DNA from: Lineus longissimus
Lineage: Eukaryota; Nemertea; Pilidiophora; Heteronemertea; Lineidae
NCBI RefSeq assembly: GCF_910592395.1
Contig: NC_088311.1
Span: 5,768,501 to 5,832,500 of the forward strand
Length of the DNA stretch: 64,000 nt
Direction of reading: 5' to 3'
Below, one piece after another: positions 6,201-58,649 of the stretch (within the stretch, counting starts at the first letter, position 1; each line of letters starts with the position of its first letter). The position numbers were made by a program, and so were the translations under genes. The notes under the pieces were generated by a model, which was given only the letters and a program-made list of their open reading frames with translations, made no database searches and was not told the origin of the DNA.

Positions 6201-9200
6201 CTTCATATGTAATGATGGTTACGTTCTTGAAGGAAATATGAATTCAACCTGTATTAGTAATGGTACTGGAAATCCTAGAGGAAAGTGGACAGACCCGACT
6301 CCCAGCTGCATTGGTAAGGCATTGTACAACTTACAACAATACTCACCTGGTAAAGCCTTTGATTTCATGGTTTGAAGATAATTTCCCGGTTAATTTTTTG
6401 TCTAAATAAAGATCGATTGACCGGTTGCTGGAGTTGTTGACTCGATTTTATCCTCATACTAAACTGCGATTTCTCATTTTAGAGATAACTTGCGAGGAAC
6501 CAACCTTGCTTTTTGGCAACGTTAGTTCATCCTCATCGACGTTTGGCGATACAATTGACTTCATATGTAATGATGGTTACGTTCTTGAAGGAAATATGAA
6601 TTCAACCTGTATCAGTAATGGTACTGGAAATCCTAGAGGAAAGTGGACAGACCCGACTCCCAGCTGCATTGGTAAGGCATTGTACAACTTACAACAATAC
6701 TCACCTGGTAAAGCCTTTGATTTCATGGTTTGAAGATAATTTCCCGGTTAATTTTTTGTCTAAATAAAGATCGATTGACCGGTTGCTGGAGTTGTTGACT
6801 CGATTTTATCCTCATACTAAACTGCGATTTCTCATTTTAGAGATAACTTGCGAGGAACCAACCTTGCTTTTTGGCAACGTTAGTTCATCCTCATCGACGT
6901 TTGGCGATACAATTGACTTCATGTGTAGCGAAGGTTACGTTCTTGAAGGAAATATGAATTCAACCTGTATCAGTAATGGTACTGGAAATCCTAGAGGAAA
7001 GTGGACAGACCCGACTCCCAGCTGCATTGGTAAGGCATTGTACAACTTCCAACAATACTCACCTGGTAAAGCCTTTGATTCCATGGTTTGGCGATATTTT
7101 CCCGGTTAATTTTTTGTCTAAATAAAGATCAATTGACCGGTTGCTGGAGTTGTTGACTCGATTTTATCCTCATACTAAACTGCGATTTCTCCTTTTAGAG
7201 ATAACTTGCGAGGAACCAACCTTGCTTTTTGGCAACGTTAGTTCATCCTCATCGACGTTTGGCGATACAATTGACTTCATGTGTAGCGAAGGTTACGTTC
7301 TTAAAGGAAATATGAATTCAACCTGTATCAGTAATGGTACTGGAAATCCTAGAGGAAAGTGGACAGACCCGACTCCCAGCTGCATTGGTAAGGCATTGTA
7401 CAACTTACAACAATACTCACCTGGTAAAGCCTTTGATTTCATGGTTTGAAGATAATTTCCCGGTTAATTTTTTGTCTAAATAAAGATCGATTGACCGGTT
7501 GCTGGAGTTGTTGACTCGATTTTATCCTCATACTAAACTGCGATTTCTCATTTTAGAGATAACTTGCGAGGAACCAACATTGCTTTTTGGCAACGTTAGT
7601 TCATCTTCATCGACGTTTGGCGATACAATTGACTTCATGTGTAGCGAAGGTTACGTTCTTAAAGGAAATATGAATTCAACCTGTATCAGTAATGGTACTG
7701 GAAATCCTAGAGGAAAGTGGACAGACCCGACTCCCAGCTGTATTGGTAAGGCATTGTACAACTTACAACAATACTCACCTGGTAAAGCCTTTGATTTCAT
7801 GGTTTGAAGATAATTTCCCGGTTAATTTTTTGTCTAAATAAAGATCGATTGACCGGTTGCTGGAGTTGTTGACTCGATTTTATCCTCATACTAAACTGTG
7901 ATTTCTCATTTTAGAGATAACTTGCGAGGAACCAACCTTGCTTTTTGGCAACGTTAGTCAATCCCCATCGACGTTTGGCGATACAATTGACTTCACGTGT
8001 AGCGAAGGTTACGTTCTTAAAGGAAATATGAATTCAACCTGTATCAGTAATGGTACTGGAAATCCTAGAGGAAAGTGGACAGACCCGACTCCCAGCTGCA
8101 TTGGTAAGGCATTGTACAACTTACAACAATACTCACCTGGTAAAGCCTTTGATTTCATGGTTTGAAGATAATTTCCCGATTAATTTTTTGTCTAAATAAA
8201 GATCGATTGACCGATTGCTGGAGTTGTTGACTCGATTTTATCCTCATACTAAACTGCAATTTCTCGAGATAACTTGCGAGGAACCAACCTTGCTTTTTGG
8301 CAACGTTAGTTCATCTTCATCGACGTTTGGCGATACAATTGACTTCATGTGTAGCGAAGGTTACGTTCTTAAAGGAAATATGAATTCAACCTGTATCAGT
8401 AATGGTACTGGAAATCCTAGAGGAAAGTGGACAGACCCGACTCCCAGCTGTATTGGTAAGGCATTGTACAACTTACAACAATACTCACCTGGTAAAGCCT
8501 TTGATTTCATGGTTTGAAGATAATTTCCCGGTTAATTTTTTGTCTAAATAAAGATCGATTGACCGGTTTCTGGAGTTGTTGACTCGATTTTATCCTCATA
8601 CTAAACTGTGATTTCTCATTTTAGAGATAACTTGCGAGGAACCAACCTTGCTTTTTGGCAACGTTAGTCAATCCCCATCGACGTTTGGCGATACAATTGA
8701 CTTCACGTGTAGCGAAGGTTACGGTCTTAAAGGAAATATGAATTCAACCTGTATCAGTAATGGTACTGGAAATCCTAGAGGAAAGTGGTCAAATATGGCT
8801 CCCAGCTGTGTTGGTAAGAAACAAACAGAACTTCCGCTTTTCCCTTCCTTTCCCATCCATGTACCTGCTTGAAAGTAGTCAGACCCGCCGCTAATTAATA
8901 CCGGTAAGGAATCGTCCCCGGTTACCTTCTCCTTTTCCATCTACGTTCTCTTTCCACTGCCCCATCTCCGTTGTCTACCTCCCCTTTCCAATTTCTACCT
9001 GCTCCAACGCCCCTTAACCCTTTCTCAAAATGTATCATGTTTCTGAGTCTTTATTAGTTTGTTAAAACGCCAGGCAGCTTATTCATTAATTCATTTCTAT
9101 TGATAGAGATAACGTGTCAGCAACCATTTCTGCTAAATGGTAACGTCAGTGAAACCTCCGCAAAGTTCGGCGCAACCATACATTACACGTGTAATGATGG

Positions 9201-12200
9201 CTATGTTCTGGAAGGAGGGGCGAATTCAACTTGTCTTCATAATGGCACTGAAAATCCGCACGGAGAGTGGTCAGATCCGACCCCCATCTGTACTGGTAAG
9301 ACCAAAAGACACATTCTTTCGAATTTTGATCTCAACGTAACTAAATTTGTTTCTAATGTTGAGTTCAACTTCGTGAACTAACAAAGGAACCTAAAGCTTT
9401 TAATGTCTCCAGTATCACTATTGAAATAACTATCATTTTTCTGTTTTTAGAGATCACCTGTAACCAAACACAATTACCTAATGGGAATGTAAGCGTCTCC
9501 AACAGAAGGTTTGGTGCTACTATACAATACATGTGTAACGATGGCTATGTTTTGGAAGGAAAGCTGAATTCAACGTGTGTCCATAACAGTACTGGAAATC
9601 GACAGGGACGGTGGTCAAACCTGACCCCAACCTGTGTCGGTAAGGAACCTAGCGAAAGTCCTCATCGTGCTTTACCTTTTCCTCATCGGTGCCCTTCTCT
9701 TGCTCCGTCCCTTCTCAATAGCCGTAACCAACTGCGCAATCATTCGTTACTCAACATAACCCTTTCCTACTCCTTATACCTTAATAATTCCATCTCAACA
9801 CACAATGCTCGAGATGGCGAAGTCTCTATAAGGAGCTCAGAAGGGACTACCTGATAGGGATTGGACTTGTTGGGGCGAGATGATAATTTGAGGACACGCT
9901 GTTAAACGCAGATTGTAATATTTGATTTCTTTCTCTTCATAGAGATAACATGTGAGCTCCCATCGTTGCTGAATGGTAACGCTAGTTCAACTTCTACAAA
10001 GTTCGACGCCACTGCATCGTACAAATGTAATGAAGGTTATATTCTTGAAGGACAGATAAATGCAACCTGTGTCAATAACGGTACTGAAAACCAGAAAGGA
10101 ATGTGGTCGAATCCTCTCCCGACATGCATTGGTAAGGATTGGAGCTTTATCAAATTGTCTCTCCTTTTTCATCTGCAGGCCATTAAGATGTTTTGTTCAA
10201 ATTTCCGCTCGCCAACCCCCTGAAGAAAGTAATATATCGTCTCACTGAGCGCATATTTTGGCATATTGGATGTTTCTCAGATTGAACCTTCTTCTATTTT
10301 TTTTCAGCGATAAACTGTGAGCAACCAACTTTGCCGAATGGTGACGTAAATTCAACATCTACGGCATTTGGCGCTACGATCCATTATTCATGTAACGATG
10401 GCTATGTTTTGGAAGGAAGTGTAAATTCAACATGTGTTCACAACGGTACTGGAAATCGGCAGGGAAAGTTGTCGAATCCACCACCCACCTGTACTAGTAA
10501 GGAATTGTCTGAAACCTCTCCTTGGCCTCACCCCTGCTCCATACCGTCGGCTTACCGGGTAGCGTCATTCCTCCTTTTCCTCTCACGCCCCCGTCCCATT
10601 GCTCAAAGATATATCACGTTCCTGTCTGATCCGCTGTAACTGACTGAGCGTGTCTTATCTTTTTATTTTATCTTTCTATCGGCAGAAATAACCTGTGAGC
10701 GACCGACTGTGCAGAATGGAAACGTTACTGTAACATCCATCAAGTTAGGTTCTGTTATCCAGTATACGTGTAACGATGGCTACGTTTTAGCAGGGAAGAT
10801 GAATTCAACTTGTGTCCATAACGGTACTGGAAATCGGCAGGGACAATGGTCAAACCCTTCCCCTAACTGCATGGGTATGTACATCCATTGTGTTTTCACT
10901 CATTTTTTTCGTTAAAACATTTGACTTTTTCACATCTCCATTTGTGGAGAGGAGAAGCGTGCTGCGATAAAAACACTCGAAGTTTGGACTAGGCACGACA
11001 TGTGGGCAGGTATCTATCTTATCGCAGACAGTATTGCGTAATGTGTATGGCTGTATTTTTGTAAGAAGTTCATATTCTTTCAGAGATTACCTGCCTTCAA
11101 CCACTCTTCTCAAACGGAAGAGCAATCACTGATTCTCTCAAGTTTGGTGGAACTGTAAGATACCTCTGTAACGAAGGCTTTGCCTTGAAAGGCAAGACAA
11201 CTTCAATCTGCATTTCCAGCGATGTTGGAAAGAGGACGGGGAGGTGGTTAGACCCTACTCCGATATGCTCAGGTAATGAAGGATGGATTAAAATCAGAGG
11301 CAGATTGTAACTGGAAGTGTAAGGAAGGAAGAATCAACCAACCACTACCATGACTACAGAGTGCCTTCAATGTCCAATCCCATATCAAACACAAACGACG
11401 CTAGGAAACTGCAATGACCTCTGGTTTCCTTCCTAAGTAGTAGAACTTTTTTCAACAAATGTTTATTTCAAACATTTCATTGAACATTTAATCTTGTTCT
11501 TTCCAGAAATAACCTGTGAGCCGCCAATCCTACGAAACGGAAGTGCAACCGCGGATTCCTTGAAATACGGCGGAACTGTAAATTACGCATGTGACGATGG
11601 TTACATACTTGAAGGGGAATTCAGAACAATCTGTGGGCGAAAGGGGAGTGAGGAAGGGAAATGGCAAGACCGGAAACCAATTTGTATAGGTAATGATTCG
11701 GAACTTATCTTGCAATGCCGTAAGAGAAAGCAAACTGAAATTGATTGTTAACATTTCATAAAAATACCAACTATTTGGTACCATATGTGAGATCCTGGTC
11801 TCATTAGTTTAGATTTCCGACTCGTTTGATAATTGCTGCCACTGGCAAAACCTAACAGAATAATTTGATTAACAGAAATTACGTGTGACATACCAACTCA
11901 TCCCGACAACGGAGTTGCGGTCGCCGATTCCCGGAAATTGGGTGGAAAGGTGCGCTACTTCTGTCGCAAAGGATATCTCCTGAATGGCAACAAAGATATT
12001 GCAACATGCGTTAGAAATGGAACGACGAATGCAAGAGGAGCGTGGTCAAATCGGACACCGATCTGTTCACCAGTCACGAAAGGTAACGCTATTTTTCCCG
12101 CAGCTCCCCGCGCGGTGAAGAACAGAATGCCCCCGCACCCACTGGGGTCAAATTTACTGGTCGTATGCGGGCGACTGCGATTGCTGCATCGACCATTACA

Positions 12201-13470
12201 AGTAGGATAAGATCAAAATAAGCAAATTTACAATATGCAAACACAACAGTTGATAAAACAGGTACAACTAAATACGTGTGTCGATAAATGACTTTTAAAA
12301 TATCGACTCCTGTGGATTGACTGTTGTGTTGTCAATATCTTTCAAAAGTCCTTCCATTTTCATTTTAGGTTATAGTCCTGTCCGTAGTTTAGAAAGTAGT
12401 TCTCCAGGAAACGATGATGGTTTTGGTAGCGGCGTCGGGTGTGGAATAGGCATAATGCTTTTAATCGCATTGGTAGTTGGCGGTATATGTATCCTTATCA
12501 AGAAAAGGAAGTACATGTAAGTTATCAGTACCAGCAGAGGGCGATATATCAGAAGGATTTTCACTTTTGCGACCCTTTGGCGTCGTATCCTTATACTGCT
12601 ATATACGACCTTGATGTAACCCGACTTCCTTTCCTTCCCTTCCCTTTCTCAATGTCCTTTCACATCTTCGAGTTACTCCTCTTTCGTCACCTTTGCCTTT
12701 CGTCTCCACCTTTTCCTTGTACGTTCCCTCCTAGTTAATCGTTCTCCTTCTTTACCTTCCCCTGTCCCTTCCTCCATTGCCTTCTTAGGCTCGTGTTGCC
12801 CTCTTCCAACACATTTGCCTTTCGTCTCCACCTTTTCCTTGTACGTTCCCTCCTAGTTAATCGTTCTCCTTCTTTACCTTCCCCTGTCCCTTCCTCCATT
12901 GCCTTCTTAGGCTCGTGTTGCCCTTCTTCCAACACATTTGCCTTTCGTCTCCTCCTTTTCCTTCTCCGTCCCCTTCTAGTTAATTATTATTATTCTCATT
13001 TGCCTCCACTTATCTCTTTCTCCTTTTCACCTCCTCAGTCAACCTGAGCTGAAGCTCAGAACATTTACTTCTATAGTTATAATTATATTTTGATCAACAA
13101 ACTCAGGGAAATGCTTTACAAAATAAATGGGTATGGAACTGCCGGGCTCGAGAGCCTGGCACCTTTAGCGAAAAAAACGCGATACAACTGATAAACCAGA
13201 CATTGTCTGCTAAATCCGGAAATGGCAACTAAATAAAACGATGTTCGGTAAATCCGGTGCTATATCCAATTAAATCTGGCGCCGTATCTAGTTATATACC
13301 GAAATACACATATGCTAACACTGGCTAATTCATTCTTTTACCACAGTGCCAGACTCCATAGTTTGGGTAGTCTAAACCCAAAACAACCCGAGGAGGAAAA
13401 AGAAGTCCGAGATTTCAATAATCCTGTTTATGGCATGGACGAAACTGAATCATATGGACAACGAGCCTAA
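285..13470 (+). CDS. Kringle/EGF/fucolectin/multi-sushi transmembrane receptor
   Basis: Probable cell-surface adhesion or recognition receptor; no established name. Exons: 285-351 (signal peptide, start MARLKSAGF), 1356-1514 EGF, 1995-2276 kringle (NYCRHPRHN, PWCYA), 2578-2721 EGF, 2860-2997 EGF, 3481-3696 and 4019-4234 fucolectin/F5-8C-like lectin (WWRVDLG, then CEVVI), 4703-4843 EGF, sushi 5001-5186, 5409-5597, 5767-5955, 6125-6313, 6483-6671, 6841-7029, 7199-7387, 7557-7745, 7915-8103, 8267-8455, 8625-8813, 9107-9295, 9451-9639, 9943-10131, 10308-10496, 10686-10874, 11084-11272, 11507-11689, 11876-12082, membrane exon 12369-12516, tail 13347-13470. All joins up to the membrane exon are phase 1; the last is phase 2. 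The total is about 1744 aa, with TM near residues 1674-1698 followed by KKRK. The tail contains NNPVYG, an NPxY-type endocytosis/PTB motif. Most sushi modules keep four cysteines and carry N-glycosylation sequons. Ligand unknown. Exon 8267-8455 lacks a normal acceptor and may be skipped. Confidence 0.85.
390..475 (+). repeat. tRNA-like SINE fragment (possible)
   Basis: In the first intron of the sushi receptor, TAGCCTAGTTG (from 397) resembles a Pol III A box and GGTTCGATTTT (442-452) resembles a B box, about 35 nt apart, as in tRNA-derived SINE heads. No cloverleaf is obvious, so it is not called a tRNA. Part of the left flank (GATAATTTGAGG) and the ACACGCTGTT string recur together near 9886-9912. 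Confidence 0.35.
3762..3873. repeat. Fold-back hairpin element in lectin-domain intron
   Basis: The two halves are imperfect reverse complements. CCATTTGCCAC at 3762 pairs with GTGGCGAATGG ending at 3873, the internal GGACTTCCTG (3796-3805) pairs with CAGGAAGTCC (3833-3842), and the arms extend about 45 nt each. A perfect 14-nt palindrome, CTGTCAGCTGACAG (3803-3816), lies near the loop. The structure fits a small MITE or snap-back element inside the intron that divides the fucolectin domain. Confidence 0.6.
5480..8790 (+). repeat. 358-bp tandem array of sushi exon + intron units
   Basis: Ten consecutive sushi exons share almost the same sequence. Each unit is a 189-nt exon plus a 169-nt intron, period 358 bp; one unit is 352 bp because of a 6-nt intron deletion. 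The acceptor AG falls at 5766, 6124, 6482, 6840, 7198, 7556, 7914 and 8624. Introns are as conserved as exons, so the copies arose by recent unequal crossing-over or are kept uniform by gene conversion. Homology to the first copy (exon 5409-5597) starts only in mid-exon, near 5480. The last copy diverges at its end (8790-8813). Confidence 0.95.
8267..8455 (+). other. Sushi exon copy with damaged splice acceptor
   Basis: Coding sequence is intact and matches its neighbours, but the preceding intron reads TTTCTCGAGATAAC where other units read TTTCTCATTTTAGAGATAAC. Six bases including the consensus acceptor are lost. The only nearby AG is 2 nt inside the old exon and would shift the frame. Because the exon is symmetric (phase 1-1, 63 codons), skipping it would keep the protein in frame. 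Confidence 0.75.
12690..13020 (+). repeat. Pyrimidine-rich 122-124 bp tandem repeat
   Basis: In the last intron of the sushi receptor, about 2.7 copies of a C/T-rich unit follow one another; the string CGTCTCC recurs at 12701, 12823 and 12947. Related pyrimidine-rich tracts occupy the introns after the sushi exons ending at 8813, 9639 and 10496. Confidence 0.8.
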
Positions 13471-16273: not shown

Positions 16274-16650
16274 AGAGACAAAGTCACAATCATACAGGAC
16301 AGGCTCACAGCCTCAGCTTTTCCCAATGTTCAGCATATGAACATACAGCACAGACATTGACACAATCTACTGTATGACCAGCACACAGTAGCTCAGAGAC
16401 AAAGTCACAATCATACAGGACAGGCTCACAGCCTCAGCTTCTCCCACTGTTCAGAATATGAACATTCAGACATTGACACAATCTACTGTGTATAACCAAC
16501 ACACAGTAGCTCAGAGACAAAGTCACAATCATACAGGACAGGCTCACAGCCTCAGCTTTTCCCAATGTTCAGAATATGAACATACAGACGTTGACACAAT
16601 CTACTGTATAACCAACACACAGTAGCTCAGAGACAAAGTCACAATCATGT
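16274..16650 (+). repeat. 116-121 bp tandem repeat, three copies plus a partial
   Basis: The string AGAGACAAAGTCACAATCAT recurs at 16274, 16395, 16513 and 16629. Copies differ by a few substitutions and small indels, giving periods of 121, 118 and 116 bp. The last copy breaks off after about 20 bases. Non-coding. Confidence 0.92.
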
Positions 16651-17758
16651 GGGACAAACAAACGACTGAAAGGTAGTTTAACATATACAATTTAATAGCT
16701 TATTACATCATTATGTACAAGAATTATGACCACAACATCACAATTTTATAGAACTGGCTCTGACACATTTTTACAAGCTTTTTACATTTACAAGTCCGAC
16801 TAATTTTTGATTTTGGTTGGGACTTTTGCTGTTCTAATATTCATCAACCCTTCATGAACCTGCTCACCTGCAAATGTGACAAGCGACTATACATGAACCA
16901 TTTTCGCACTAATTTAATGATTTTGTGTTTGAAACACCACAATGTTTGATTATTACAAAGACAACCCAAGACGTCACTTCAAGTTCACTACAAGTTCACT
17001 ATCCCATTTGCCTCAAGAAACCAGACTAAGCAATATTAGATCTAGATCCACAAATTTCTACATGGAATTGCGGGGACATCAAGACTTCAGTAATACAGTG
17101 CGGAGTTACACATCCCTGTTTAACAGGTAATACCACCAATGCTAAAAAAGCAATTTAAAGCTCACTTTTTTAAATTAAGCACTCGAATATACATGACGTG
17201 ATGAGTATAGTTTTCTGTCTCCTCTTCTCAGGAGAATGAATTCCTGATTTTGAAGGTCTTCCTTTCAATGCTACACAGATTGTTTTGTAGCAATGATGTC
17301 AGCTCTAAGGATCCAGATCAGAACGATCAATCCTAGCCTTTTTCAATGATTATGCACTGGGCAAGACCCAACATTCCTGGCCATCTTGCAATGTATCAGC
17401 ACAAAATAGTGCAACGTGGTCACCAGCTGAAACTTGGAGGTAGTCAAACTTGGAGGTTCAAGAGTTTATAATGTTGGTATACTCATCAGGGTAGTGATCT
17501 CCACTGAAAGAATCATCGAAGTTATTATTAGGACATAAACAAAGACCAATGGCATCAAACTATCACTTGTTGAAGGGTCGTTTCCTCACAAAATCTCCAG
17601 AACTTGGAGGATTTCTAGCCATCTGGAACCTGCATCAAGGACCAGCTTTACTGCTGTGACCAGGACGCATTAAGACAGACGACAGCATTCGTCTCAAGAA
17701 CAGGACTTTCCATCCGAGACTGAGAATGCAGAAGACACCACATCTTTATTGAAAATAC

Positions 17759-20700
17759 TTACGATCTGCAGCAAGATTCAAAGCATGGCAACATGCAACA
17801 GATGCAACCCTTGTTATGGCCGGAGTCTGAGCGGTAAAGTGGAGAATCAACATCCTCAGAATGTCGGTCGATGAACTCCTGTATAATACTCTTAGGGAAA
17901 CCCTCTGTGTAGTACCCCTGCAAGTAAAGACAAGGGCAAAACTTCACTGGCCAAATTTATGTGCCAGCTCTTTGAAAACTTCCTCTCTCCAAAGCTATGG
18001 GAAGTTTTAGTAAAAAGGATTTCTTTTGACCGAGCTGCCCATGTGCCTTAACCAAGTCTGGGTGAATCAAGGAGCAAAGCAAAAAAGCATTCGTAAAGTT
18101 TCAATAGAGTACTCGATCTGCCATCTGACCCCAATGACATCTGAATCAGGTCTTCAGCCTACTGAAACTATAAGCATGACTTGTTGCCCTATTGGAGGTT
18201 AGGGGTTGTGTTAGAGTTAAGGAACCATGCTAGAGTTAAGGAGCTGTGTTAGGGTACAGGCGCCATGGTTGTCTAGCGGCTAATGTCTCTGGCTTGTTGC
18301 AAGAAGTCCATGATCGAATCACACAATCGGCGGGTAGGTCCTTCAGCCAAACATGCTTCCCACCGCCCAGGTGTACATTGTTTAAAGGGGTACCGGTATA
18401 ATATACACCACTGCATATATAATTTCTCCAGTTGTAGTGCTGCATGAACAGCTCATCTGAGTTTAACTGAAAGATTTTTGGATTGACAAAGGGTCAAAGT
18501 GTTAAGATGGAAGATCATCTCTACCATTATTGATATCAGACTACATGCTTACAAACTAAGACTATTACCTTAATAGTATCATACGTATTGATGATGATTG
18601 ACGTGAACAGACTGTAGACCACATACATGAATAGACTAATGAATACGTATAGGTAGATACGACTGTAGATGTAGATTACACTTTTCTCGCGCTCAATGGC
18701 GGAGAATGTTACAAACATGTCGTCACCATTCACCAAAGAGAATAAGCATTCAGATGCTGTGCCAATCTCGCGGAACTGAAATACGAAAGTTTCAAACATG
18801 TTATAACCAGAACCATTACCTTGATTGTATCATATGTGTTGATGATGATGGACGTGAAGAGACTGTAGACCACATACATGAATACACTAATGAATATGTA
18901 TAGGTAGATACGGCTGTAGTAGTAGATGTAACTGACGCTGTTCTCCAGCTGAATAGCGGCAAATGTTACGAACATATCGTCCCCATTCACCAGGGAAAAT
19001 AAGCATTCAGATGCTGTCATAATCTCACGAAACTGAAAATTACAAAAAGAAATTACAATCACCATGTTTTGTTCTTGATTGAAATCATTACAACACAGGT
19101 TGCAGAAAATTGTGCTGAGCCACAAAATATCCAAGCCAAGAACAGAAATATGTACATCAGCACACTTCCCCATGATTTTCAAGCTCCCTTTTGCATTGGT
19201 AGTTGAAGTTCAACCAGCTCACATTGGACAAGATCCCAACAGAACAGTCGGCAACTTGCCTCAATTGGTCCATCCCAGAAAGGAATAGTTTCCCAGCCAT
19301 CCAGAGATTGGACATTGAATTCATTAAGAAGAAGAAGCAGATATGGGAATATCATTCGAGTGCCTTATTTACCTTAATGTGGTAGGGTCCGAGCACCACC
19401 CAGCCACAGAAAGTGAAGCCAAGGTACAGCACGGCCGCACAGATGATGAAACGAGTAATATCTGGCAGTGACTTCTTCATCGTTAAAATGAGAATCTGAA
19501 AGAGATGGAATACATTAGCACAGTAACTCGTGGGTTCCACTTCAATTTGCTCTCTCCATAGTCCAGGTTGAAACAAAATGGGATATTTTTTTCTTTCAAC
19601 GTGTTTTTTAAAACTTATTGCAGGCCTGAGTCTACTCAAACATTTCCACTTCTGTTAGAACAATTTTTCTCCATCCCGAAAGTGAAACAGTTATCTAACT
19701 TACATTGTAGTGATCGAAGAAGGATAGATATCGTAGTACTCCTATCCAGACAAGGAGATTCCCTGTACCAAGCAGAAGACTACACACGTCATAATTCTGG
19801 CTGTTCTGAAAGGAAAGAGGCATCAAGAATAAAACTCTACTACATGAATGATGCTTTAACAAGAGGTGGAAGTGAAAAATGAGAGTGAAATTCTGAAGGT
19901 TTCTTTGCGGCACTTTATACACCTTTCCAGAAATGGGGCGCTGAGTGTCCGAAATAGTGATGTCATAAGGGGAAACTAGGCCTTATGGTGGAGGGACAAA
20001 GGAGATAGTCATGGTTGACAAACACACTTGAATGCCTTAATGACGGACAAGGGGGAAAAAGTTAGTTCCAATGCAAGCCACCAATTTCGGGAAGCATGTA
20101 TAATGTGCAACAGTCTCGAAGCACTTTTCATTCCTTCCCCAGGCTAATCCAGAAACCAAGAAGCACACATACACGTACTACGCCACACTTTCCCATTTCA
20201 GATCAGCTAAGAATACCGAGTACCATTGATCATGATGAGAGTGTGCCACACTGCCTGATATGACACCAAAGATTCTGACTTTAAGTGGCTACGAGTAGAC
20301 GTACCTTGCTCTCAATTTGTATTTTGAGCGACGAGCCAATCACTGTCAGAGTATCGTTGATCAGAATGAGAACGTGCCATAGATTCAGGAACTCAGACGT
20401 CTCGTAGAAATTCAAGCGTCTATTCTCTCGATGAAAGAAATACTTCACTGTTAACTAAAAAAAGGAAATTAAGGGAATGCTGTCATTTGCATTGTTCAAC
20501 AATGTAAAGGTCTTGGATCTCTTCTTGCATGTACATTTATTTGTCACAACTTTTTCCTTTTTACTTACTACTTTGAACACACAGTCACTATTAACATCAA
20601 TATACCCCAAGTTTATTCACAATGCCACTGGAGGACATGGATCTTATCTGCCAGCCACTGAAGTCAAACACCCCGACCAACTCACCTTTTTGAGTTGCTC

Positions 20701-23700
20701 TGCTCTGATGAGAGAACGGAAACATAGTATGAAGGAGGAAGCGCTGATGAAAATCACCAAAACATCAAGAACTGTTGTACCAATTTGTTTCAAGTAGTTT
20801 TCACCTAAAGAGAAAGAGACCATGATAATTGGTCTTGGTTTTCTCAGATTGGAACCGCACTTCTTTTCAATACTGCAGTCACAGTGACGATCTACAATGA
20901 CCCAGAAACTTCTGAGCGGATTTCAGATCAGACAATGCCTAATAAGGGCAAACTTGTGTTGTTTTGCCAAGGTAAAAACAAGGTAGCTCTCTATAAAGAA
21001 ACTCAAAATAGAAACATGACCCATGGACACCCAAGGCCAAAAAACCCCACCAGTGTCCAACTGCCCAACATCGCTCCTTGGCCAAAGGTATATGGAATGG
21101 CACCTTTATTTCCAAGTACAAGCTATCTTTCATCTAAACTTACTTGCATGAATAACATTTGATTCTTTGCTGCACTTCAATGGATCTACAACACTTTTAA
21201 GGGTAACCGGACACTGACCAGAATGACCGCTATTGTCATAGAGAATCTGAAAGCATTAAAAAAGTATACATTACATGAGCTCCATAACTTAACAAGGCAT
21301 TCGGACTCAAAGGCTATGAAAGACACTGCACAAGAGTTCACAAGAGAAACATTCTTAGTCAGGGAGGTCGCATCTCATGGATACTGGGCCTCTTCCCAAA
21401 ATCTGCCCTAAGTAAATCCAGAGAGTTGACAGGCAGCGCAACTCTTTTACAAACAAAGATGTAATCTGAGGATATTGCTGTTATCCAGAGAAAGTGACCA
21501 AAACCTTTACTTGAAAAAGGGAACAGTACAGACCTAGACAATTTGAATGCATTCATTGTTATGTGTAAATTACAGTAAATATTGTGGCACATAGCAACAC
21601 GCAACATAATACATCACTTACAAGAATATTGAACTCAAAACAGTCTGGTGAGGAGACCTGTGTCAGCCGTTTCAAGTGGATCGATTTCAAGGAAAAGGAG
21701 ACTTTGATTGATACAATGCTGGAACAAGAATCACATACTGTCTGTCATGTTTCACAAAGGCATTTTTACTATCAACAGACGGCTTTTCAATAAACAAACA
21801 ACCTTAAACCGTGAAAAGGACAGATTAATTACATGTACCAGTAAGCTTCATTAGTGATATACTAACACCACCCATACAATCTATATGCATTCCTTTCCAG
21901 GAATTTAAGCTATGATACATGTCTGTGTCCAGGAAGTTGGTACTGTTGAAATAATAACATGCATTGTTTTCATTTTGATTAGTTTTATCAAGGAAGTTTA
22001 AATCACTTGGGTTTTATTGAGTTGTCAGGTCTCATGTAGCAGAAGAGCAACTGTAGCTGTTAATGACACAAGCTTGGTATAAAAATGGCTGAGCACAGTA
22101 TATAAACTTCGACAGCTATCAGATGTGATGAGTCTTCCTAATTAGTTCATATTCTACACTTTTAAAGAACGCTGGTATTTTTATCCAATGGCACTGTGTC
22201 AAACCAGAGAGTTGTAATAATTCATCAATCAATCAATAAATCAATCAATCAATCAACTTACTTGTCCAGATTTAGCGTACTGTTGTGCTCATCAAGAAAT
22301 GCGATGATATCAAACACGAAACATGGCTCTGTTGCATTCCCTTTACATTTGTTCACTGCAGTTAAGTTGGCACACTCTGTAGAAATTAAAATGATCAACA
22401 TCAAATCAATGTTGGCCTAATTAAAGAGTTATCTATTTTATCTCAATAGAATTTACAAAGGGGGTCCCAAAAAATCAAATGGTAAAAAACTAATATTTTC
22501 AATCCACTCTCAGCAGACGCACTGCCATGAATGCTTCATTTCTTTAAGAGAAATACAAGCTAAGTGGGGAGGGGTGCACAAATTGATGATCTGACTGCAA
22601 CTTTTTGTGAAGAAACTGGAAAAGAGTATGACCTCGCCAAAGGATCAGAACCTCAAATAGGTCAGCAACTGATTCAAAATGAATCTGATTTTCCGCAAAT
22701 AAATGTCATTAACATCAGAAACATGCCTCAATCCTTTACCTGTCATTATTCCTGCATCGAAATGATATGTCTCATTATGAGCGGAGATCTCTCCCAATTT
22801 GTAGCGATCAAAACAGATCTTCATTGGAGGTTTGGAGCCATCTTCCTCTGAGAAATCGTATGATCCAATGGCCAATGTCCTAGTCTCATTATACTGGAAA
22901 GAAGCGGATGGTAAAAAGTTACTTTGAAAGAAGAAAGGCAACCATTTCGATTAACTTTTATGGAAATCTGTCCACAGTAACGTAACTCACTTTCCTTACT
23001 TCTTTCATATCATCATAATATTATACTACTTGAAGAGTCATTCTTGAATTTTGATTAAAGGACATAGTCAATAAGTCTTTGAACAAACTCATAATCCAAG
23101 AAAATCTAATTAAATTCAGTTGGTAGGAAGATATAAAATAGATAAAATAGAGATAAGATATAAAAGATATAAAACTGTTTGACATTTGAAATCATCCAGG
23201 ATTATTCTTAATTTTTGTTTGAAATACTAGGTATTTGGAGGTCACGAGAGCAGGTTTTTTCAAATTTGGTCTTTCTAAGATCAGGTCTCGCTCTATTACT
23301 TACTCGTTTCATGATGTAGTTTATTGAATTGGCCAACTCTGGTATCGTGTACACAGCAAACGGCCCATTCGTTGGCGGGTAGGGCATAGTTTCAAACGTT
23401 GTGTCCCAATTTTTCAAAAAGAGATGTTTAAATGCGACTGTGTTCTTCTCTACAAAACTGACATGGCTGGCCCTGTCTGTACCAAATACTGTTAGCTGGA
23501 ATAACAATGAGAAATATCACACAATGCCACACTTATAGCAGCAATTTATCAAAATGAAGATTGTATTATTATTGTTATGTTATTAAATACTTCTGTGAGG
23601 TTAATTGAAAATAAATACAAGTTTTTGAAAATTTGAATATGTTTTCTTTGATTTTCTCAAAAGTACAAAAAGTGAGTTAGGCACTTATGTTATTAGTGCG

Positions 23701-26486
23701 ACGTTATCATATATGAAGTTACGTGACAAAAAGGGTTATACCTGAATCGTTACTATGACTATTTTGAAAATCTGCAACACCAGTTTCCATGGGAATCTCC
23801 GCCTTGCTCGCCACTTCTCGCAGGGATTCATGAAGAAGAACCTCAAACGCCTTCGTAACTTGTCCTCCATAGCTGGTGTGAACCTCGTCCCACAGTTGCA
23901 GGCTCCATAACTAGCCTGACTAACTCTACTGGGTTGGCGGGCAAAGTTCCTCATTTCTGGAAAAACATGTGGAAGAAAAAAACTGAATGATGGGCAGTTT
24001 TTTTCACAATCATACCAACAATATTAACAGGGTATCTTTTTTTGTAATTTGTGAGCACACAAGTTTAATACGCAATAATCAATCTAGGTCAATATACATA
24101 CATTGGCTTGATTGCCATAATTACATTATACCTCCAAAGGCATGTAATTATAACTACAGGATTGACCCAGAGAAGTAAAATACTACTTTAACTGTGCATT
24201 CCACTGTTCCTGTGTATATTGTCATGGCCTTTAGGTCAAGTACATACAATTCTAGCAATTGCACATGGACATTACTACTGTTGTCATCCCATGCTGTAAA
24301 TCAAAAGATCACTTGGCATACCATGAAGTGTATCATTTTTCCACCAGTTCATAGCCATTTTGACTGACAAACAAGGTAAATGTTGAACCAAACACCAAAA
24401 AAGAACAACAATGTCCAATTCAAGTCAACTCCAAAAGTGTTAATCCAGTTCAAGTTAACTTTAAAAGTGTCAGCCAGTTGAAGCTAACACCAAGTGTCAT
24501 TCATTTCAAGTCAAGTGTTATCCTTTTTAAGTCAAGACCAGGAATGTTATCCAGTTCAAGTCAACATCAAAAGCATTAATATCCATTTCAAATCAACACC
24601 AAACGTGTTCTCCAGTTCGAGTCAACTCGAAGAGTGACTGCGAGAGCATTTAGAAAACTCTCATAGAAAGTCACTTGAGCCTACATGTAGATGTAATTAA
24701 ACAGAACCAGGAAGTTTTGATCAGGTCTTTCCAGACATATGACTGAACTGAACACTTGAGAACCCCAGTAGCACAGAGTGTTGAGCACTCAGGATACATG
24801 AAGAGCTTTCCCCGGATTGCCTTGGTTTGATTTAACAAAGAGACATGATGTCACTGCAAAATATGCAGCCTGAAGTCATTAGCATGGTTACACCATCAAA
24901 CCAGTATATTGAACTTGCAGCCATGGGTCAGTCAGTGATGATCAAAGAGACAGTGGGTTTTTGGTTCAATCCATAAGAAAATGTGGTGGAGAGAATCGGA
25001 ATCACTGTCATGACCGACGAAGTGTAAACTGTAAAAAAACCTACCTGGCTTGTCAACAAATGTCACCTCCTTCACATTCTCTGGATCTTCAAGCCTGAGG
25101 CGATCAGCCCTTTTCAAAGATGCACTTAACTCAGTCAATTCCTTTTCCATTACCGTCTCCTGGATAATCTCAGTAGGTGTTTCACCTTCCCCAGTCATTT
25201 TTATGATCAGCACAAATCTAAGTCACAAAAAGTCTTGACGCCACGAATTAGTCAATGACAAGTTTGACGGCCTTAGAGCATGCAGAAAGAGTCGGAGAGT
25301 CACTTAATCATAATTCACATGCAGAAAGTCACAAACTGGCCCATACCAGACAAATTAAAGTTCAAATTTTACATACTGTATCAATGTACATCATTTTTCA
25401 CCTTGCTATGTATAAGTTGACCAACAGAGTCACCTGTCTCAATGTAGAAATCAGGCCAGGCCTGAACACTCGTGACCAAAGTCTTTTATCTTTGTACCGA
25501 TTAGAATCAAACAATTGATATCGAAAATCAAATTTTGAACAGAACAATGTCATCTCAAAATTTACAAAATAAAGTAACCAAATCTTAAGACTTTTATTTC
25601 AAAAGTGTGTAGTTCCCCAACACAACCAACTTGTGTCCAAAACTACTTTCTCTAACAGAGAGAGTGTCCTTGATAGAGAGGTGTGCGCTAAGGGCATCCT
25701 GACATAACCAGTAATTTACAATACACTCCGCCTCTCGATACGAACGAGGTAGGAGTATCAATAACCTGATCTCAGGATGCGCTAAGAGATGCTCCACTGT
25801 ACTCACCTTCTGTGTTGATTACATCTGTTGGCTGTACCATCATCAAAATCTCCTTTAATATGGGTGGATTAGCTTAAAGATATCTCTTTTTATATCACAT
25901 GTATATCCAACTAACTTGTATGTCCATACAGTACTCACCTCCCGAGTTGATAACATCTGTACTATCATAAACAATCTCCCCCATGATGGATTGCTTGGCA
26001 TTAGTCACTCAAAGATATTGTACTTCTAATGCCTTTTTGAGCCATATATTAACTGTCTCTATATAATTGCCAGAAATCATGCACCAACTAAAGTGACTGG
26101 TAAATTTCCCCTTATTTATAATTAATGACTGTATTTGAGTTGACCAGCATTTATTTCAATATTCATCATCATGTTATAAAATACTGTGCTTAATCGATTC
26201 AGTTGGCAAATCATTTTTACTCAAGAAATTTAGGTTATAGGCCTAGGCCTAAATAATAACCAATTGGCATTGCGCATGCGGTCTTTTGTTTGCTGTAGGC
26301 CTATATTTGTTGTGGCCTGGTGTGAAGTTTATCCGGATTTCAAAAGTACACAAGTCCCGACACTATGTCCGAAATTAGGAACCATAGGCATAACACACTT
26401 CTGATTATTTTTATGCCAAAAATCTACGTGCCACAAAGCTTCTTACCATCACTAGACTGGTCAGAATCGTCTAAGTTGTCACCCAT
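17759..26486 (-). CDS. TRPML: Mucolipin (TRPML) cation channel
   Basis: Endolysosomal non-selective cation (calcium) channel. Exons in transcript order: possible first exon 26486-26447, then 25185-25045, 23956-23742 ([21 protein letters not shown]1), 23495-23304, 22893-22740, 22376-22262 and 21718-21622 (luminal domain; SPDCFEF), 21246-21144, 20804-20686 (TM2), 20454-20305 (TM3), 19805-19704 (TM4, [13 protein letters not shown]), 19495-19373 (TM5, [11 protein letters not shown]), one of two pore/TM6 exons (19032-18820 or 18775-18569), and 17917-17759 (C-terminal CICCM and SCCRS cysteines, as in the palmitoylated tails of the family). All junction phases close. Length is about 640 aa, against 580 for human TRPML1. 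The start is uncertain: the acceptor at 25186 has a poor pyrimidine tract, and alternative first exons exist. It is divergent from SMC6. Confidence 0.95.
18262..18335 (+). repeat. tRNA-like SINE fragment (possible)
   Basis: In the last TRPML intron, GTCTAGCGGCTAATG resembles a Pol III A box and GATCGAATCAC about 35 nt downstream is a weak B box. No clear tail or target duplication is seen. Confidence 0.3.
18569..18775 (-). other. TRPML pore/TM6 exon, version B
   Basis: 69 codons, phase 0-0, about 61 of 69 aligned residues identical to version A. The selectivity filter NGDDMF is unchanged. Differences lie in the pore-to-TM6 linker ([10 protein letters not shown], two residues shorter) and a few positions in TM6. 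The gap from version A's donor to this acceptor is 44 nt (18776-18819), too short for normal splicing of A to B, so use should be mutually exclusive. Confidence 0.9.
18820..19032 (-). other. TRPML pore/TM6 exon, version A
   Basis: 71 codons, phase 0 at both ends. Contains the pore signature NGDDMFVTF, a linker with [12 protein letters not shown], and the TM6 segment ending in INTYDTIK. Flanked by a good acceptor (TTTTCAG) and the donor GTAATG. First of two tandem copies in transcript order. Confidence 0.92.
22225..22256 (+). repeat. (AATC)n microsatellite
   Basis: Short ATCA/AATC tetranucleotide tract immediately beside the donor of the TRPML exon ending at 22262. Confidence 0.85.
24410..24640. 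repeat. Degenerate ~38-bp tandem repeat in TRPML intron
   Basis: Variants of CCAGTTCAAGTCAACxCCAAAAGTGTTA recur about six times with many substitutions. Non-coding, inside the intron between the exons ending at 25045 and starting at 23956. Confidence 0.6.
25807..25984 (-). other. Tandem pair of candidate alternative first exons of TRPML
   Basis: Two short blocks begin with ATG and end in a strong donor (GTGAGTAC) in phase 1, the same phase as the candidate first exon at 26447-26486. Block 1 is 25984-25939 (peptide [15 protein letters not shown]). Block 2 is 25843-25807 (peptide [12 protein letters not shown]). They share TDVIN and flanking sequence with a 132-bp offset, so they are a local duplication. 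Each would give the channel a different cytosolic N-terminus. Confidence 0.55.
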
Positions 26487-27851: not shown

Positions 27852-30800
27852 TTCCAATTTAGACATTGTGGGTGTGTAGTGAAGTGCAAGCCCCAAGATG
27901 TCCAAGAGGAGGTCAAGTGGCAGTAGCCGTCCTACTGCTGGGCCTTCCAGCAAACGGTCTCGGGGCGAAGAAAGTGATGAAGAGTGTATGGAGATTGATG
28001 AGTCCCAGTGTCCCGACTTCTTCAACCCTATAACAATGGGTGTAAGTTTTTTGCTATGTTTTGTGGAATTTACTAACTTGGCCATTGTCATAGGAGCTGC
28101 AGGAGGACTTGGCAAGTTACCCTGCCCTTTTACCTGACCTATGTCATGTACACTTAACTTGTACCCATCAATGCTGAAGTATGAAGTGCATCAATCAGTG
28201 TCAAATTGAAGATTTCAGAATGGATTAGGAATGTGTTGTGGTTTGTGTTACTTGAACAATGATTTATATTCATTTCTTAACGTTTTCAGAAAGAAGCGGA
28301 AGTGGGCATTATTGAGCAAGTTTCGATGAAAAACTTCATGTGTCACAACCGACTGGATTTCAAGTTCTGTCCTCATGTCAACTTCGTTGTGGGACGAAAT
28401 GGCAGTAAGTTTTTTCTTATGTCCGTTTTGTAAAGAGAGACATTTCAAGACTTATACTTATAGAGACATTTCTCATTGGTTCCTGGAGAGATAATATTCA
28501 AAACTATTCTCTTATTCAGGTGGAAAGAGTGCTATTCTGGCAGCCCTTGTAGTTGGATTGGGTGGCAAGGCCAGCATGACGAACCGTGGAACCACAATTA
28601 AGAACTTTATCAAAATAGGCAGATCGTAAGCATATGATTGATGCAGGCATTAAAAAGTTGCTTACAGTGATAAGTTGCTAAAAATTGTTCCATCCTTTTC
28701 CTCAAAATCATGGTCATTGGTTGAAATCATTCTTAGCTATCAAGGTAAGTGATACCACAAAGCCGGATGAGATGGAAGTTATTCGAAACTTTCAAGGCAA
28801 TGATTCATCATAACATTTTGAATGCCGCTTTGGTTATCCATGATGTTGTGGTTGACATGAGCCACCCCATGAGTGACTGAATTTCAAAGCATGAAATAAT
28901 TACCGCTACACTGTTACTTTAGAAATCAAAATGCCTTCACAAACCAGCGTACTTTTATGTGTCCTACATGAATATCAAGAACCTTTGAATCGCTTTGCAG
29001 GAGTGCTGAGACTATGGTCCGTTTGCGAAACAGAGGCACCGATGCGTTCAAGCCGCATGAGTATGGCGACTCAATTATCGTGGAGAGAGTTCTTCGAACT
29101 GATGGCTCAAGCTCGTACAAGCTCAAGAGCAAAGATGGTATGTACCTTCAAATTTGCTTTAGCTCTGTCTGTACCTTTTAAATGAAGGCAAGCTGGTCTT
29201 GGAGGCTGTTGACATTTGGAACGATGGCAGTGACACTGATATGAGCCAATAACTTCCAAAAGAAGAGAAGGGAGGAATTAAAGCTGAAGCTTTCTGACAC
29301 CACCCCTAAATGTGACAACCATAATCATGTTTAGTACTGTACTGTAAGTAATGTCATAAAATCACCTTCCTGTGTTTTTCTTTCCAGGTCGCTTGGTATC
29401 ACAGAAAAGAGAAGAGCTTGTCCATATTCTTGATCAGTTCAATGTCCAGGTTGAGAACCCAGTAGCCATACTGAATCAAGATACAAGTAAAAACTTCCTA
29501 CATTCAAGTAAACCGCAAGACAAATATAAGGTAGGTCACCAGAGTACAAGATGTATTTGAAGATCTCTGCATTCCCAATTGAAATGACTTGACTAACCAT
29601 TTCAACGAGGGGGTTCATAAGTAATTGGAAGCAGTCTAAAGTAGTCGTTCCTTTGTATTGGACAATGTGTTGACGCTTTATTTTCAATTCTTTCCAGTTT
29701 TTTCTGAAGGCAACGCAATTGGAGCAGATGAAGTTGGACTACGCCTATGCCAATGACCAGAGAGAGAACACCATGGAAATCATCAGTCGGAAAGAAAAGA
29801 TGATTCCCCAGTTGGAGAAGGAAGTGCAAGAATGGCAGCAAAAGTTCAAGGCGGTTTTAGGACTGGATGAACTGCGTAAGAAAGTTGAGGAACTGAAGAA
29901 AGAGATGGCTTGGGCCCTTGTGGCTAACAAGGAAAAGGTAGGCCTTTATTATCCCGCATATGAGCATTTAGATCACTGTTCCTTGTGCCAGATTTTGAAA
30001 AAAGAGCAGTCTGGTGTAAAGCTATTTGGCTCTGACACCTCTGCCACTTTTTTGGCAATAAAGCCCCCAATTAGGCAAAGCTAGCAGCTACTTGATTGTG
30101 TCAACAAAGTCAATAGTGCCACTGTCGATGTCTCTTCGTCTGTCCTACCTATATCAAAATGGGTGCAAGCAGAAATAGGACTAGGTCAAATCATTTCTAT
30201 TGTAGGAGCTTGAACCGTTCATGAAGCAGCTGAGAAACCAGGAAGCCAGGACGCCAAAATTTGAAAAAAAGGTGCTAGAATCTCAGGAGAAAGTGAATGA
30301 GTGTCTGAAAAGGAGAGAGGAGATCCAGAAAAAACTGCAGGAACTTAGCAAAGAGGTGAAGGAACTTGAGCCCCAGCATGAGCAAACCAAGCGTGCGGTC
30401 AACGAGAAGAAGAAGATCTATAAGAATGCTGTGATGGAATGGCGTAAGGTGGAGAGCGATTGCAGAAATGCCAATAACGACAGAAAGCAGCTTCTCGACA
30501 AAATTTACGAGATAAAACACTCTGAGCGCCAGGATCAAACTGACAAGATCCGCAGAGAAGAGCAGATTGGCCGTCTAAAAGACGAACTTAAGGCGCTGAT
30601 GGAGGAGCGTCATACTCTGGAACATCAGTTGGAGCAGCACAGGAATGCCAATGGCAAGATGAAGGAGGAGCAGTACAGAATAAGGTCAGTATTTGGTCGA
30701 TATTGCTCCATTTAACAGTATAAAGGGTTCGATTATTATATTGCAGTGGGTCTTGCTCAGTGTGATACGCAGCCGGAATCTGGAAAATCATGTTGTAAAC

Positions 30801-33800
30801 GTGTGTTCATGATTTCAGAAATGATGACAAAGAACTCAAGATGTTGATAAGTAACAAAGTGCGGGAAAAAAAGGAGGTTGAGGCATCAAGGAATAACAGT
30901 CTCAAGAAGTTTGGCCAATTCATCCCAGATCTAGTCAAGAAAATCGAGGTGGCTCACAAGCAGGGAAGATTCCATCAAAAACCCAGAGGTCCCATTGGTG
31001 AGAAACATTTCCTTTCTCAAACCTTTGTTTGGGTCACTTAGTTTTTCACACGTTTTGGGACATAAAACCACAATGCAGGGTCTCTACTTGAGAGTATCCT
31101 TGTGGCTGATGTTGGGCACAACTTTTGCAACTCGGCTTTCCTTGGATTGGGCTAGGTGGCCATTGATTGAATGAACAAAGATTTGGTATTCTATAACCTG
31201 GGACTATATGTAGGTATTCAATTGATTCCTGATAAAAATGCACATTTGACATCTTTATTTTCATAATTCTGTAGGAGCTCATATCCACCTGCGAGACCAG
31301 AATTGGGCCGTTGCTGTCGAGGGGTCCCTGAAGAACCTCCTGCTGTCATTCTGTTGCAATGATCATCAGGATGAGCGAGTCCTGGAACAAGTCATGAAAG
31401 AAACCGGCATACCTATGGGAAGGAAGCCAGCCATCATATGCAGCAGATTTCTGGTGAGTCCTCTAGAACACGCTCTTCTTCTGGGTTTCAATTTCTGCAT
31501 CGGTCCGTAATGCTGAGGAGTCGTATTAGAAAGGACCTGTGATGAATATCAAGATTAAGCCTTTTAGGATTTGTCATTACTCATTTGTTCAATTGAGACT
31601 TTTTGGCTTTCTAATAGTATGGCTCTCTCTTTTCAGCCCCACTTTCATGATGTGTCCAGAAGCGTAAGTACATCTTAAGCACATAATTAATCTCATCACC
31701 CTTAAGAAATGATAATACATGTACTATGTCTCTTGAAAGTCTCTTGAATAGAGGTAAAGATCTGTTAGACAACAGATTATGATGATGTTGATGTTATCAA
31801 TGGTTGTGATGGCACATCGATTGTTCATTGCATTCATTTGTGATATAATATTAACTGATTACTGTCTCTTCATGTCTTCCTACCAGCGAGCAACGTGCGA
31901 GTTCCCTACAATTCTTGATGTTCTTGAGGTGGAGGATTCAGTAATTGCAAATTGTCTAGTCGATCAGGTAATTCAACTTTGATTTGAATAATGTGCTTCA
32001 TTCAGTACTGCCACCTAGGATTTAAATTATGACAATGTTCTTTCATTTAAGATCAGTAGACAGGACTGTCTAGTTACAATTGATTTCAATATATCTAGTT
32101 TAAGAGTGACAACTTTTGCGGGAACTTCTGTTTTTTGTAAGCACCATAATTATCACAACAACAGCATTTTTACTCTGCCCCGAAATTTTGTCACGAATTC
32201 AAAAACTCGAGACCCTTTTAAGATTTGGCCTATGGCGTGTAGAGACTTAGGTTGAAGAACTTGCTTCTGAATCACAACACTCCTTTTTTCAGAGGAACAT
32301 AGAAAACATCATTCTCATCCGTGATCCAAAAGTTGCCCGTAATATCATGATGAGAAATGTGCCACCAAATGTCCGTGAGGTAAGTCTAGTTCACCTTTTG
32401 AAAGTTTCAAGATTAAGGGGAGATCCAAGAATGTGGTTACAACGTGGTATTACAATGCACTCAAAACATACAGTAATAATAATTTGTTATTAATAACCAT
32501 ATTTTGTGTTGACTATATCAAATAAATATGCTCAACTTCACCTTGCAAACACCTTTAAATTACGACACAACACAGTATGCCGACACTGACACTGATGATG
32601 TTTATGGGTTTCCTTTCCAGGCTTTCACACCAAAAGGTGATCAACTGCTGCATTCTCCCACCTTCAGATATTATTCAGCCAAAGATGAAGGGTCAAAGTA
32701 CCTAAGTGTAAATGTAGAGGAAAACATCAAGTGAGTTGAATTATTTCATTACTCTGGTTAGTGGAGCAACATTGTTTGATTTTTGATACCCGGTGTATCT
32801 CCACCACCAAGCCATGGGTATGAACAAAGGCGAAGCTGTTGAGTCAATACAGTGCAGACAATGCTGTAGGATGGGAGCATTGGCTTTCGTACCAGTCTAA
32901 CACATCCAACAGACTTGTTGGTCAGATATGTGAGTTCAACTGTCTCTGCACTTGCTCCAACACAATCGATAACTTCTGGCAAAATATCTTATGGCAGGCA
33001 CTGTCGGTGGGAATATGGCTGATCATTTTAGTTGGACTTTGTATTGGTATGATTGAAGGCATCAATTGGGCTAAAGACTTCTGAACTGGGGTGCATTTTC
33101 CCATTCTGCTGCTGTGTTTTATTTTACAGTATGTTCTCTCCTCTTCAGAACACTCACTCAGGAGATCAAGGAGTATCAGAACCAGCTGCACATTGTCTCA
33201 AACAGGCTCGCAGAGGTGGACGGGCATATACGTGATTGCAAGCAACAGGAAAACGCCACCCAGACCCGCCTCATGAAGATCAGAGAGAAGAGTAGCAAGA
33301 TACAAATGGCAAGTTTTGTTTCACCCCTCGCCTTGTCCCTTCACCAGTCATCCTGTTTTCGAGGAAATATTTGAACATCCAGAGTTATTTTAGAATATTA
33401 AGATTGAAATATAATCAAGCTTTGCTTCCCAGTTGGGATGATTATAGACTGTTGTATTGTAAGCCTACTGACCGAAACCTTAAAAATGTAATGGATGTTT
33501 CCCATCAAAAATGGTAGTTCTGCAGTAAAAATATTACCAGTCAGCCATTTAATGACCAGGGTGTGCTTGATAGCTGTCACATGTTCTTTATATTCTTTAG
33601 GAGATCGACGAACTGGTTAACATCGAAGAGCCAGAAGCTGTTGACATCATAACGTTGGAAGAGGAGGTTCAGAAGTACGATGAACAACTTGAGACGCTGA
33701 ACGAACATGTCCAGGCTGGCAAAGACAAGTGTGAGGAAGCTAAGAATGCCATGGAGACAGCCGAGCAGACGTACAAAGAGATAGATCAGAGGATACGAGC

Positions 33801-48222: not shown

Positions 48223-48694
48223 GTTAGGCCAAACCATAGAGATTCTCTGCTAATATTATCCAGTCCGAGATTTTCTATGAGATGTAATCTCTATTTTTTT
48301 CTCTAAGTCCGAAGCTTAAGTTATTTGTATTTATTGTGCAGAATTCACTGGTAAAGCAACCGAACAAGTGGCAAGGGTGGAATCAATGTCATGCTGACAT
48401 ACCTGCGTAATGTTTGGATTCCTAGTTGGCTGTTGGGTCAAAAGTTGTCAAGCCTTTCGAAATTCACTTTTAGAATAATTTTTCAGGGAAAATGACAATT
48501 GAGACAGCTTGGCCAAATTATCCGGACCGTAAAGGTAGCTTGTTAAAATAAAATTGTACTGTTGTGTTATAGAATTGACTAATGATCTGATCCACCACTT
48601 GACAAATGTCTTGCTTGAACTATCTTGTGTGTCCAATGTCTGATAAGGTTGGTGTTTTCTTTTATTGCTTCCTGTATGGTATTTCATTGCAGAC

Positions 48695-55940: not shown

Positions 55941-55963
55941 GTGAATTTTTCAAACTTGGAAAA

Positions 55964-58614: not shown

Positions 58615-58649
<35 letters not shown>

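Follow-up and report, generated by a model that had tools for sequence, protein, structure and literature searches.

A single TRPML (mucolipin) channel gene of the nemertean Lineus longissimus contains two homologous exons, A and B, which each encode the pore and TM6, are separated by 44 nt and have diverged from one another with a low dN/dS. We consider it likely that the two exons result from an old tandem exon duplication and are mutually exclusive, with exclusivity enforced by steric hindrance across the short interval between them. The window analysed, meaning the whole stretch of DNA under study, covers 64,000 nucleotides. The features on which the argument is built are as follows, coordinates being those of the window.

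17458..25198, minus strand: TRPML (mucolipin) gene, with its ATG at 25198 and its stop at 17458; 15 coding exons including A and B
19373..19495, minus strand: upstream exon E11 (S5), phase 0 at its 3' end
18820..19032, minus strand: alternative pore exon A, 213 nt, 71 amino acids; pore helix 1, NGDDM filter, pore helix 2, a turret longer by 2 residues, and TM6
18776..18819, minus strand: A-B interval, 44 nt, GT...AG
18569..18775, minus strand: alternative pore exon B, 207 nt, 69 amino acids; the same segment with a turret of TRPML2/3 length
17763..17917, minus strand: downstream exon E14 (C-terminal tail), phase-0 neighbour of the pair, with a GTAAGT donor starting at 17762
17458..17503, minus strand: putative last coding exon E15, taken from the splice model without homology confirmation

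The exons of the TRPML gene were placed by hand, using splice sites and the reading frame. Translation of the resulting splice models gave an isoform A of 645 amino acids and an isoform B of 643 amino acids, neither of which contained an internal stop. A protein search with isoform B returned Mucolipin-2, -3 and -1 as the best PDB matches (E ~1e-134); the Mucolipin-2 chain was matched over residues 77-619 (E = 1.4e-134), and Mucolipin-3 and -1 followed closely. The Pfam domains MCLN_ECD, PKD_channel and Ion_trans were all found above their cut-offs in the full isoform B. PF21381 MCLN_ECD, the mucolipin luminal (extracytosolic) domain located between TM1 and TM2, was detected at residues 135-334 with a score of 131.1 bits (cut-off 27.1). 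Judged by this domain, by near full-length similarity and by the NGDDM filter, which together define TRPML membership, the predicted protein identifies the gene at 25198-17458 as a TRPML/mucolipin channel. A six-frame search of the whole genome (391,118,348 bp, 30 contigs) with the exon A peptide, in which four candidates were scored, detected only the A and B loci, with E = 4.5e-38 and 2.6e-30; the count of one TRPML gene in this genome refers to this exon A search alone. A family search of the genome with MCLN_ECD gave zero matches and its control also gave zero, the domain being split over several exons.

The 3' end modelled here differs from the one proposed in the original prediction, which had ended the downstream exon at 17759; translation continued through the E14 donor runs into an in-frame TAA whose last base is this position. 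The GTAAGT donor at 17762, together with the putative exon at 17503-17458, would provide an alternative C-terminus to this read-through stop. The in-frame TAA (17761-17759) falls within the E14 donor (17762-17757, minus strand), and a transcript retaining the last intron would encode a shorter C-terminus.

The TRPML gene lies among genes of other families, assigned from predicted proteins and open frames. On the plus strand we take the neighbours to be SMC6-like (~27898-38000), TM9SF-like (42000-47851) and USP14-like (55714-63956); on the minus strand they are presumably a rhodopsin-type GPCR in one exon (14904-13927) and an RPS20-like frame (40022-39633). A tandem exon array occupies 5388-10879 on the plus strand, where a 358-bp unit is repeated ~9.4 times with 96% match (5457-8818) and is followed by five diverged units. 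Both translated units contained one exon-like open stretch bearing a cysteine pattern that we assign to the sushi/CCP family, and the array has the appearance of a recently expanded exon series in a cell-surface or complement-like gene. A minisatellite with a 52-nt unit repeated 11.9 times was found at 48683-49301, and additional tandem repeats at 12688-12984, 16274-16648, 52945-53425 and 58904-59579. Rfam returned zero matches within the 64-kb window.

The coordinates originally proposed for exons A and B and for the 44-nt gap were exact, and the claims that both exons are phase 0-0 and that each encodes NGDDMF and TM6 were borne out by exon lengths that are multiples of 3 between the phase-0 exons E11 and E14, and by the translations. 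Either exon yields a full-length open channel frame, and A and B are interchangeable in frame. They are adjacent homologous exons of interchangeable phase, as expected for a mutually exclusive pair, with 61 of 69 aligned residues identical. Within the window, tblastn retrieved B from A with E = 1.2e-34 and A from B with E = 6.8e-28, and no convincing third or decayed exon copy was found there (next-best match E = 0.082 with tblastn and 0.44 with blastn). The existence of further copies elsewhere was rejected, the whole-genome search with exon A having returned the pair only. An 85-codon open stretch in the intron between B and E14 was considered as an alternative terminal exon and rejected, this length being reached in 16% of base shuffles; for its 76-residue portion downstream of a TTTCAG, Pfam gave zero matches (E <= 0.1).

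Residues are numbered here according to human TRPML1, anchored on 469-NGDDM (PMC12753230). The selectivity filter is identical in A and B. The two exons differ (A/B) at positions 458 (M/G), 478 (A/S), 481 (Q/E), 482 (L/R), 492 (Y/I), 500 (I/V) and 504 (V/L); in the turret, they also differ by an N/K residue aligned to position 487 and by two residues in length, A being the longer. Most of these changes are located in pore helix 2 and the luminal turret, with one in pore helix 1 and two conservative ones in TM6.

Across the 69 aligned codons, 31 of 207 nucleotides (15%) differ between A and B; 19 codons differ synonymously and 8 non-synonymously, and there is one 2-codon indel. With 9 of 20 fourfold sites differing, the pair cannot be explained by recent copying, allelic variation or duplication during assembly. 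Assembly errors may arise where tandem copies lie as close as 257 nt, but two haplotypes placed in tandem by mistake would have to account for both the 15% divergence and the fourfold changes, and the Lineus longissimus assembly is described by its authors as long-read and manually curated (PMC8593623); we regard such an error as extremely improbable. The values of dN/dS between A and B were 0.067/0.747 (NG86), 0.066/0.540 (LWL85), 0.070/0.443 (YN00) and 0.077/0.480 (ML), corresponding to a range of 0.09-0.16. Simulations in which all 31 changes fell on one unconstrained copy predicted 21.2 amino-acid changes, and 8 or fewer without a stop were obtained in 0 of 20,000 runs. With half of the changes (16) on the unconstrained copy, 2.8% of the simulations matched the data, and with a third (10) the match rose to 60%. 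Had one copy been neutral ever since the duplication, at least half of the changes would be expected on it; the simulation rejects such a copy (2.8% or less). The codon changes thus indicate that both exon copies have been under protein-level constraint for most of the time since they were duplicated.

The simulated match of 60% at one third of the changes leaves room for one exon having lost its function recently, in which case one copy, most likely B, would be dying or silent and the gene would make a single channel. The B acceptor, the lowest of 14 in the gene, points in this direction, as do two positions at which exon A, unlike exon B, retains the residue common to TRPML1-3: exon B has S instead of A at 478 and E instead of Q at 481. 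The reverse is found at position 504, where A departs (V for L) and B keeps the common residue. Both frames are open, both exons are flanked by AG and GT, and of the 51 residues invariant in TRPML1-3, A keeps 34 and B keeps 33; the dN/dS of 0.09-0.16 is accompanied by changes at 9 of 20 fourfold sites. When each exon was scored alone against Ion_trans, B scored higher than A (21.3 versus 14.4 bits, both below the cut-off of 25), giving no sign of decay in B. We consider it unlikely that either copy is dying or silent. The idea that the A/B differences avoid TRPML1-3-invariant residues was rejected, since 6 of the 8 substitutions fell on such residues as compared with 51 of 69 columns overall (P = 0.68).

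A and B are closer to each other (61 of 69 residues) than either is to mammalian TRPML1-3, with which only 38-41 of 69 residues are common. Unless homogenisation has made A and B more alike, the duplication is therefore probably younger than the divergence from vertebrates. A run of 17 codons without synonymous difference, mostly in TM6 (permutation P = 0.03), is suggestive only of some gene conversion between A and B. Shared intronic flanks were considered as a trace of the duplication. The donor flanks of A and B aligned with a score of 18, within the range of the gene's other flanks (10-22). For the acceptor flanks, in an alignment that is out of register, the score was 21; the other flanks gave 12-28 when compared with A, a range that includes this value, and 10-18 when compared with B, all of them lower. 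A repeat finder extended the A-B match by 15 nt into the donor flank and by 6 nt into the acceptor flank. A search for relatives of the exon pair among viral contigs gave 32 pattern matches, none of which was a relative, as expected for an animal gene.

Both exons had been credited with good splice sites. With a crude score based on general site frequencies, this held for the A acceptor (2.96) but not for the B acceptor (-1.03), the weakest of the 14 acceptors of the gene. The donors scored 2.34 (A) and 1.76 (B), and both have T rather than G at +5. The 44-nt interval contains adenines at 3, 4, 16, 18, 19, 21, 28, 29, 30, 38 and 43 nt from the donor, all of them within 43 nt; candidate branchpoints in better positions lie 16-30 nt downstream of the A donor, the most usable two by a branchpoint consensus being those at 19 and 28 nt. 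Since the whole intron is 44 nt, the predicted sites lie below the donor-to-branchpoint distance of ~50 nt proposed as a steric threshold (PMC7969005). For a human EMD construct, productive splicing was reported to need at least 45-47 nt between donor and branchpoint (PMC11291888), and a distance below 50 was reported for 57 human MXE clusters (9%) (PMC5740500). The original prediction that the interval is too short for spliceosome assembly agrees with the human threshold of 45-47 nt, but does not hold absolutely, as human introns of 43 and 49 nt that share a G-rich enhancer are spliced according to one report (PMC4463651). The A-B interval does not contain any G-triplet, unlike these G-rich human ultra-short introns.

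The other 13 introns of the TRPML gene measure 208-1088 nt. Intron lengths around it were surveyed with our own gene finder, whose codon table was derived from the TRPML gene together with a GPCR frame; it relied on general splice-site frequencies, admitted introns as short as 20 nt and had no exclusivity rule. On the TRPML gene itself it recovered 9 of 15 hand-placed exons exactly, and two runs continued into the neighbouring GPCR; the intron counts are thus rough and refer to predictions made without transcripts. Its predictions for the window comprised 54 distinct introns; apart from the 44-nt interval, the shortest measured 74 and 134 nt, and the 74-nt intron sits inside the intronless GPCR frame and is probably spurious. 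In the adjoining 200 kb, the retrained gene finder predicted 101 introns, one being below 60 nt (a 34-nt intron belonging to a model with a low score) and three below 100 nt.

These data bear on the alternative that A and B are both joined, the 44 nt being removed like any normal, if very short, intron, so that the protein would carry two pore/TM6 cassettes. A+B is in frame and was the combination picked by the gene finder in two overlapping windows; the spliced human 43- and 49-nt introns and the 34-nt intron predicted nearby count against mutual exclusion. Set against joining, 44 nt is below both the minimum of the human construct and nearly all predicted introns around it, and the interval does not have the G-triplets of its human counterparts. 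TM6 of TRPML channels ends on the cytosolic side, and an A+B product, with its second filter and TM6, would place the second pore helix and filter after this cytosolic end, on the wrong side of the membrane, where they cannot form a pore. We consider the joining of both exons very unlikely. Skipping of both exons would remove the pore, and both A+B joining and double skipping keep the frame. As A and B are each divisible by 3, neither of these mRNAs would be removed by NMD, and exclusivity must therefore be set at splicing.

We favour a mechanism in which one TRPML gene body offers two interchangeable pore cassettes in its pre-mRNA and splicing would join either E11-A-E14 or E11-B-E14. The A donor and the branchpoint and acceptor of B lie within 44 nt, so that U1 and U2 snRNPs could not both engage and A-B joining would be blocked. 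Selection of A or B would then depend on relative site strength and on regulators. The A acceptor and, slightly, the A donor are stronger, which makes A the likelier default; B would need help or a shifted balance of splicing factors and, having the weakest acceptor of 14, may be used rarely. Either product would form a whole lysosomal cation channel of six TM segments; the filter would be common to both, with pore helix 2 and the turret differing. The mutually exclusive pair put forward in the original prediction is supported by homologous in-frame exons, an old duplication, low protein divergence and the short interval; the weak B acceptor and a possible recent decay weaken it. That both exons are used, that they exclude one another and that their products differ in function is what we infer from these properties of the DNA.

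Exclusivity might also be imposed by regulators or RNA pairing rather than by steric hindrance, in which case the exons would still be alternative and both-skipped or mixed products would be made too. In favour of this view, spacing by itself leaves the choice of exon unexplained; no sequence element governing that choice was found. On the published thresholds, however, spacing alone is sufficient, and single-sequence folds made without statistical control showed no obvious docking/selector arrangement near the pair. A non-steric mechanism seems to us rather unlikely.

The consequences of exon choice for the channel would follow from the residues that A and B change and from those that they share. 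Residues Y499, S503, F505 and F513, which we take to be part of the ligand pocket, are unchanged between the two exons. So is Y507, which has been described to bond N469 upon agonist binding (PMC12753230). Position 468 is V in both A and B, the TRPML2 state. In the same study, the I468V substitution in TRPML1 abolished Zn2+ permeability and kept Ca2+ permeability (PMC12753230). Both isoforms are therefore predicted to be TRPML2-like in this respect, and exon choice is not expected to toggle between Zn2+ and Ca2+ permeability. The effects of other substitutions in pore helices 1 and 2 were mixed: A479Q M480I was reported to retain both permeabilities, and sets of substitutions that included S458N to lose both (PMC12753230). 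Counted from the N of NGDD to the start of S6, there are 24 residues in A, 22 in B, 22 in TRPML2/3 and 25 in TRPML1. An identical filter combined with differences mainly in pore helix 2 and the turret points to tuned gating or luminal regulation and not to a selectivity switch. The earlier suggestion that exon choice could tune gating or the lipid response is plausible; we would expect the choice between A and B to act on conductance, on ligand-gated opening or on regulation from the luminal side (pH, Ca2+), and to leave ion selectivity alone. Because TRPML channels are tetrameric, A and B subunits might be mixed within one channel.

Mutually exclusive exons, including the steric class, are already well known, and several described systems resemble the TRPML pair in part. 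Exons 8/8a of CaV1.2 (CACNA1C) are mutually exclusive and alter drug sensitivity (PMC3596553). Like A and B, they are two homologous exons for an S6 segment of a cation channel, the CaV1.2 pair being reported as used one at a time; CaV1.2 differs in being voltage-gated and in that the exons encode S6 of domain I, whereas the TRPML cassette comprises pore loop, filter and TM6. In OGDH, exclusivity of exons 4a/4b was attributed to branchpoints too near the upstream donor, in an intron that has stayed short through long evolution (PMC7969005). Steric exclusivity in a short intron is what we propose for TRPML as well, but OGDH is an enzyme and its reported branchpoints, 25-41 nt from the donor, are set apart from the 3' splice site, whereas the whole TRPML intron is 44 nt. 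The nAChR alpha6 channel is ligand-gated and pentameric. Its gene in insects has tandem alternatives for exons 3 and 8 that predate the compared insect orders, with unequal efficiency of exon 8 selection (PMC1919356). It shares tandem alternative exons in an ion-channel gene with the TRPML pair and is distinguished from it by three copies of exon 8 in most of the species compared (PMC1919356). Mammalian TRPML1/2/3 show diversity in the same stretch from the N of NGDD to S6, but achieve it by gene duplication, not by exon choice.

The original prediction knew of no described pore-exon switching in TRPML. In agreement with this, no description of a TRPML pore-exon pair was found in the open PMC literature on TRPML/mucolipin splicing and on mutually exclusive exons in TRP genes, among the matches listed and as far as their accessible text extends. 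The insect TRP papers among them described exons of the mutually exclusive type for Pyrexia, TRPM and TRPL, located towards the beginning of the gene, but none for TRPML in the text available. A survey of cephalopod TRP channels used one representative sequence per locus, as its available text states (PMC13402157), and such exon pairs could be overlooked in this way. As far as these searches reach, the TRPML pore cassette would be a new case of a known class.

Lysosomal Ca2+ release is usually framed in terms of lipids, pH and the choice of paralogue. If the exons are used as proposed, alternative splicing could tune this release as well, and the 44-nt interval would be a very compact case of sterically exclusive splicing. 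The A/B pair is also a natural swap experiment for the region from pore helix 2 to the turret, with the filter unchanged. We advance tentatively, as a possibility about which we have more doubt than confidence, that swapping of a whole pore cassette allows a single TRPML gene to produce two or more lysosomal channels with distinct functions. The turret and pore helix 2 would then be varied by exon choice, and mixed A/B tetramers would provide graded lysosomal Ca2+ channels in which the filter, and hence the exclusion of Zn2+, is held constant.
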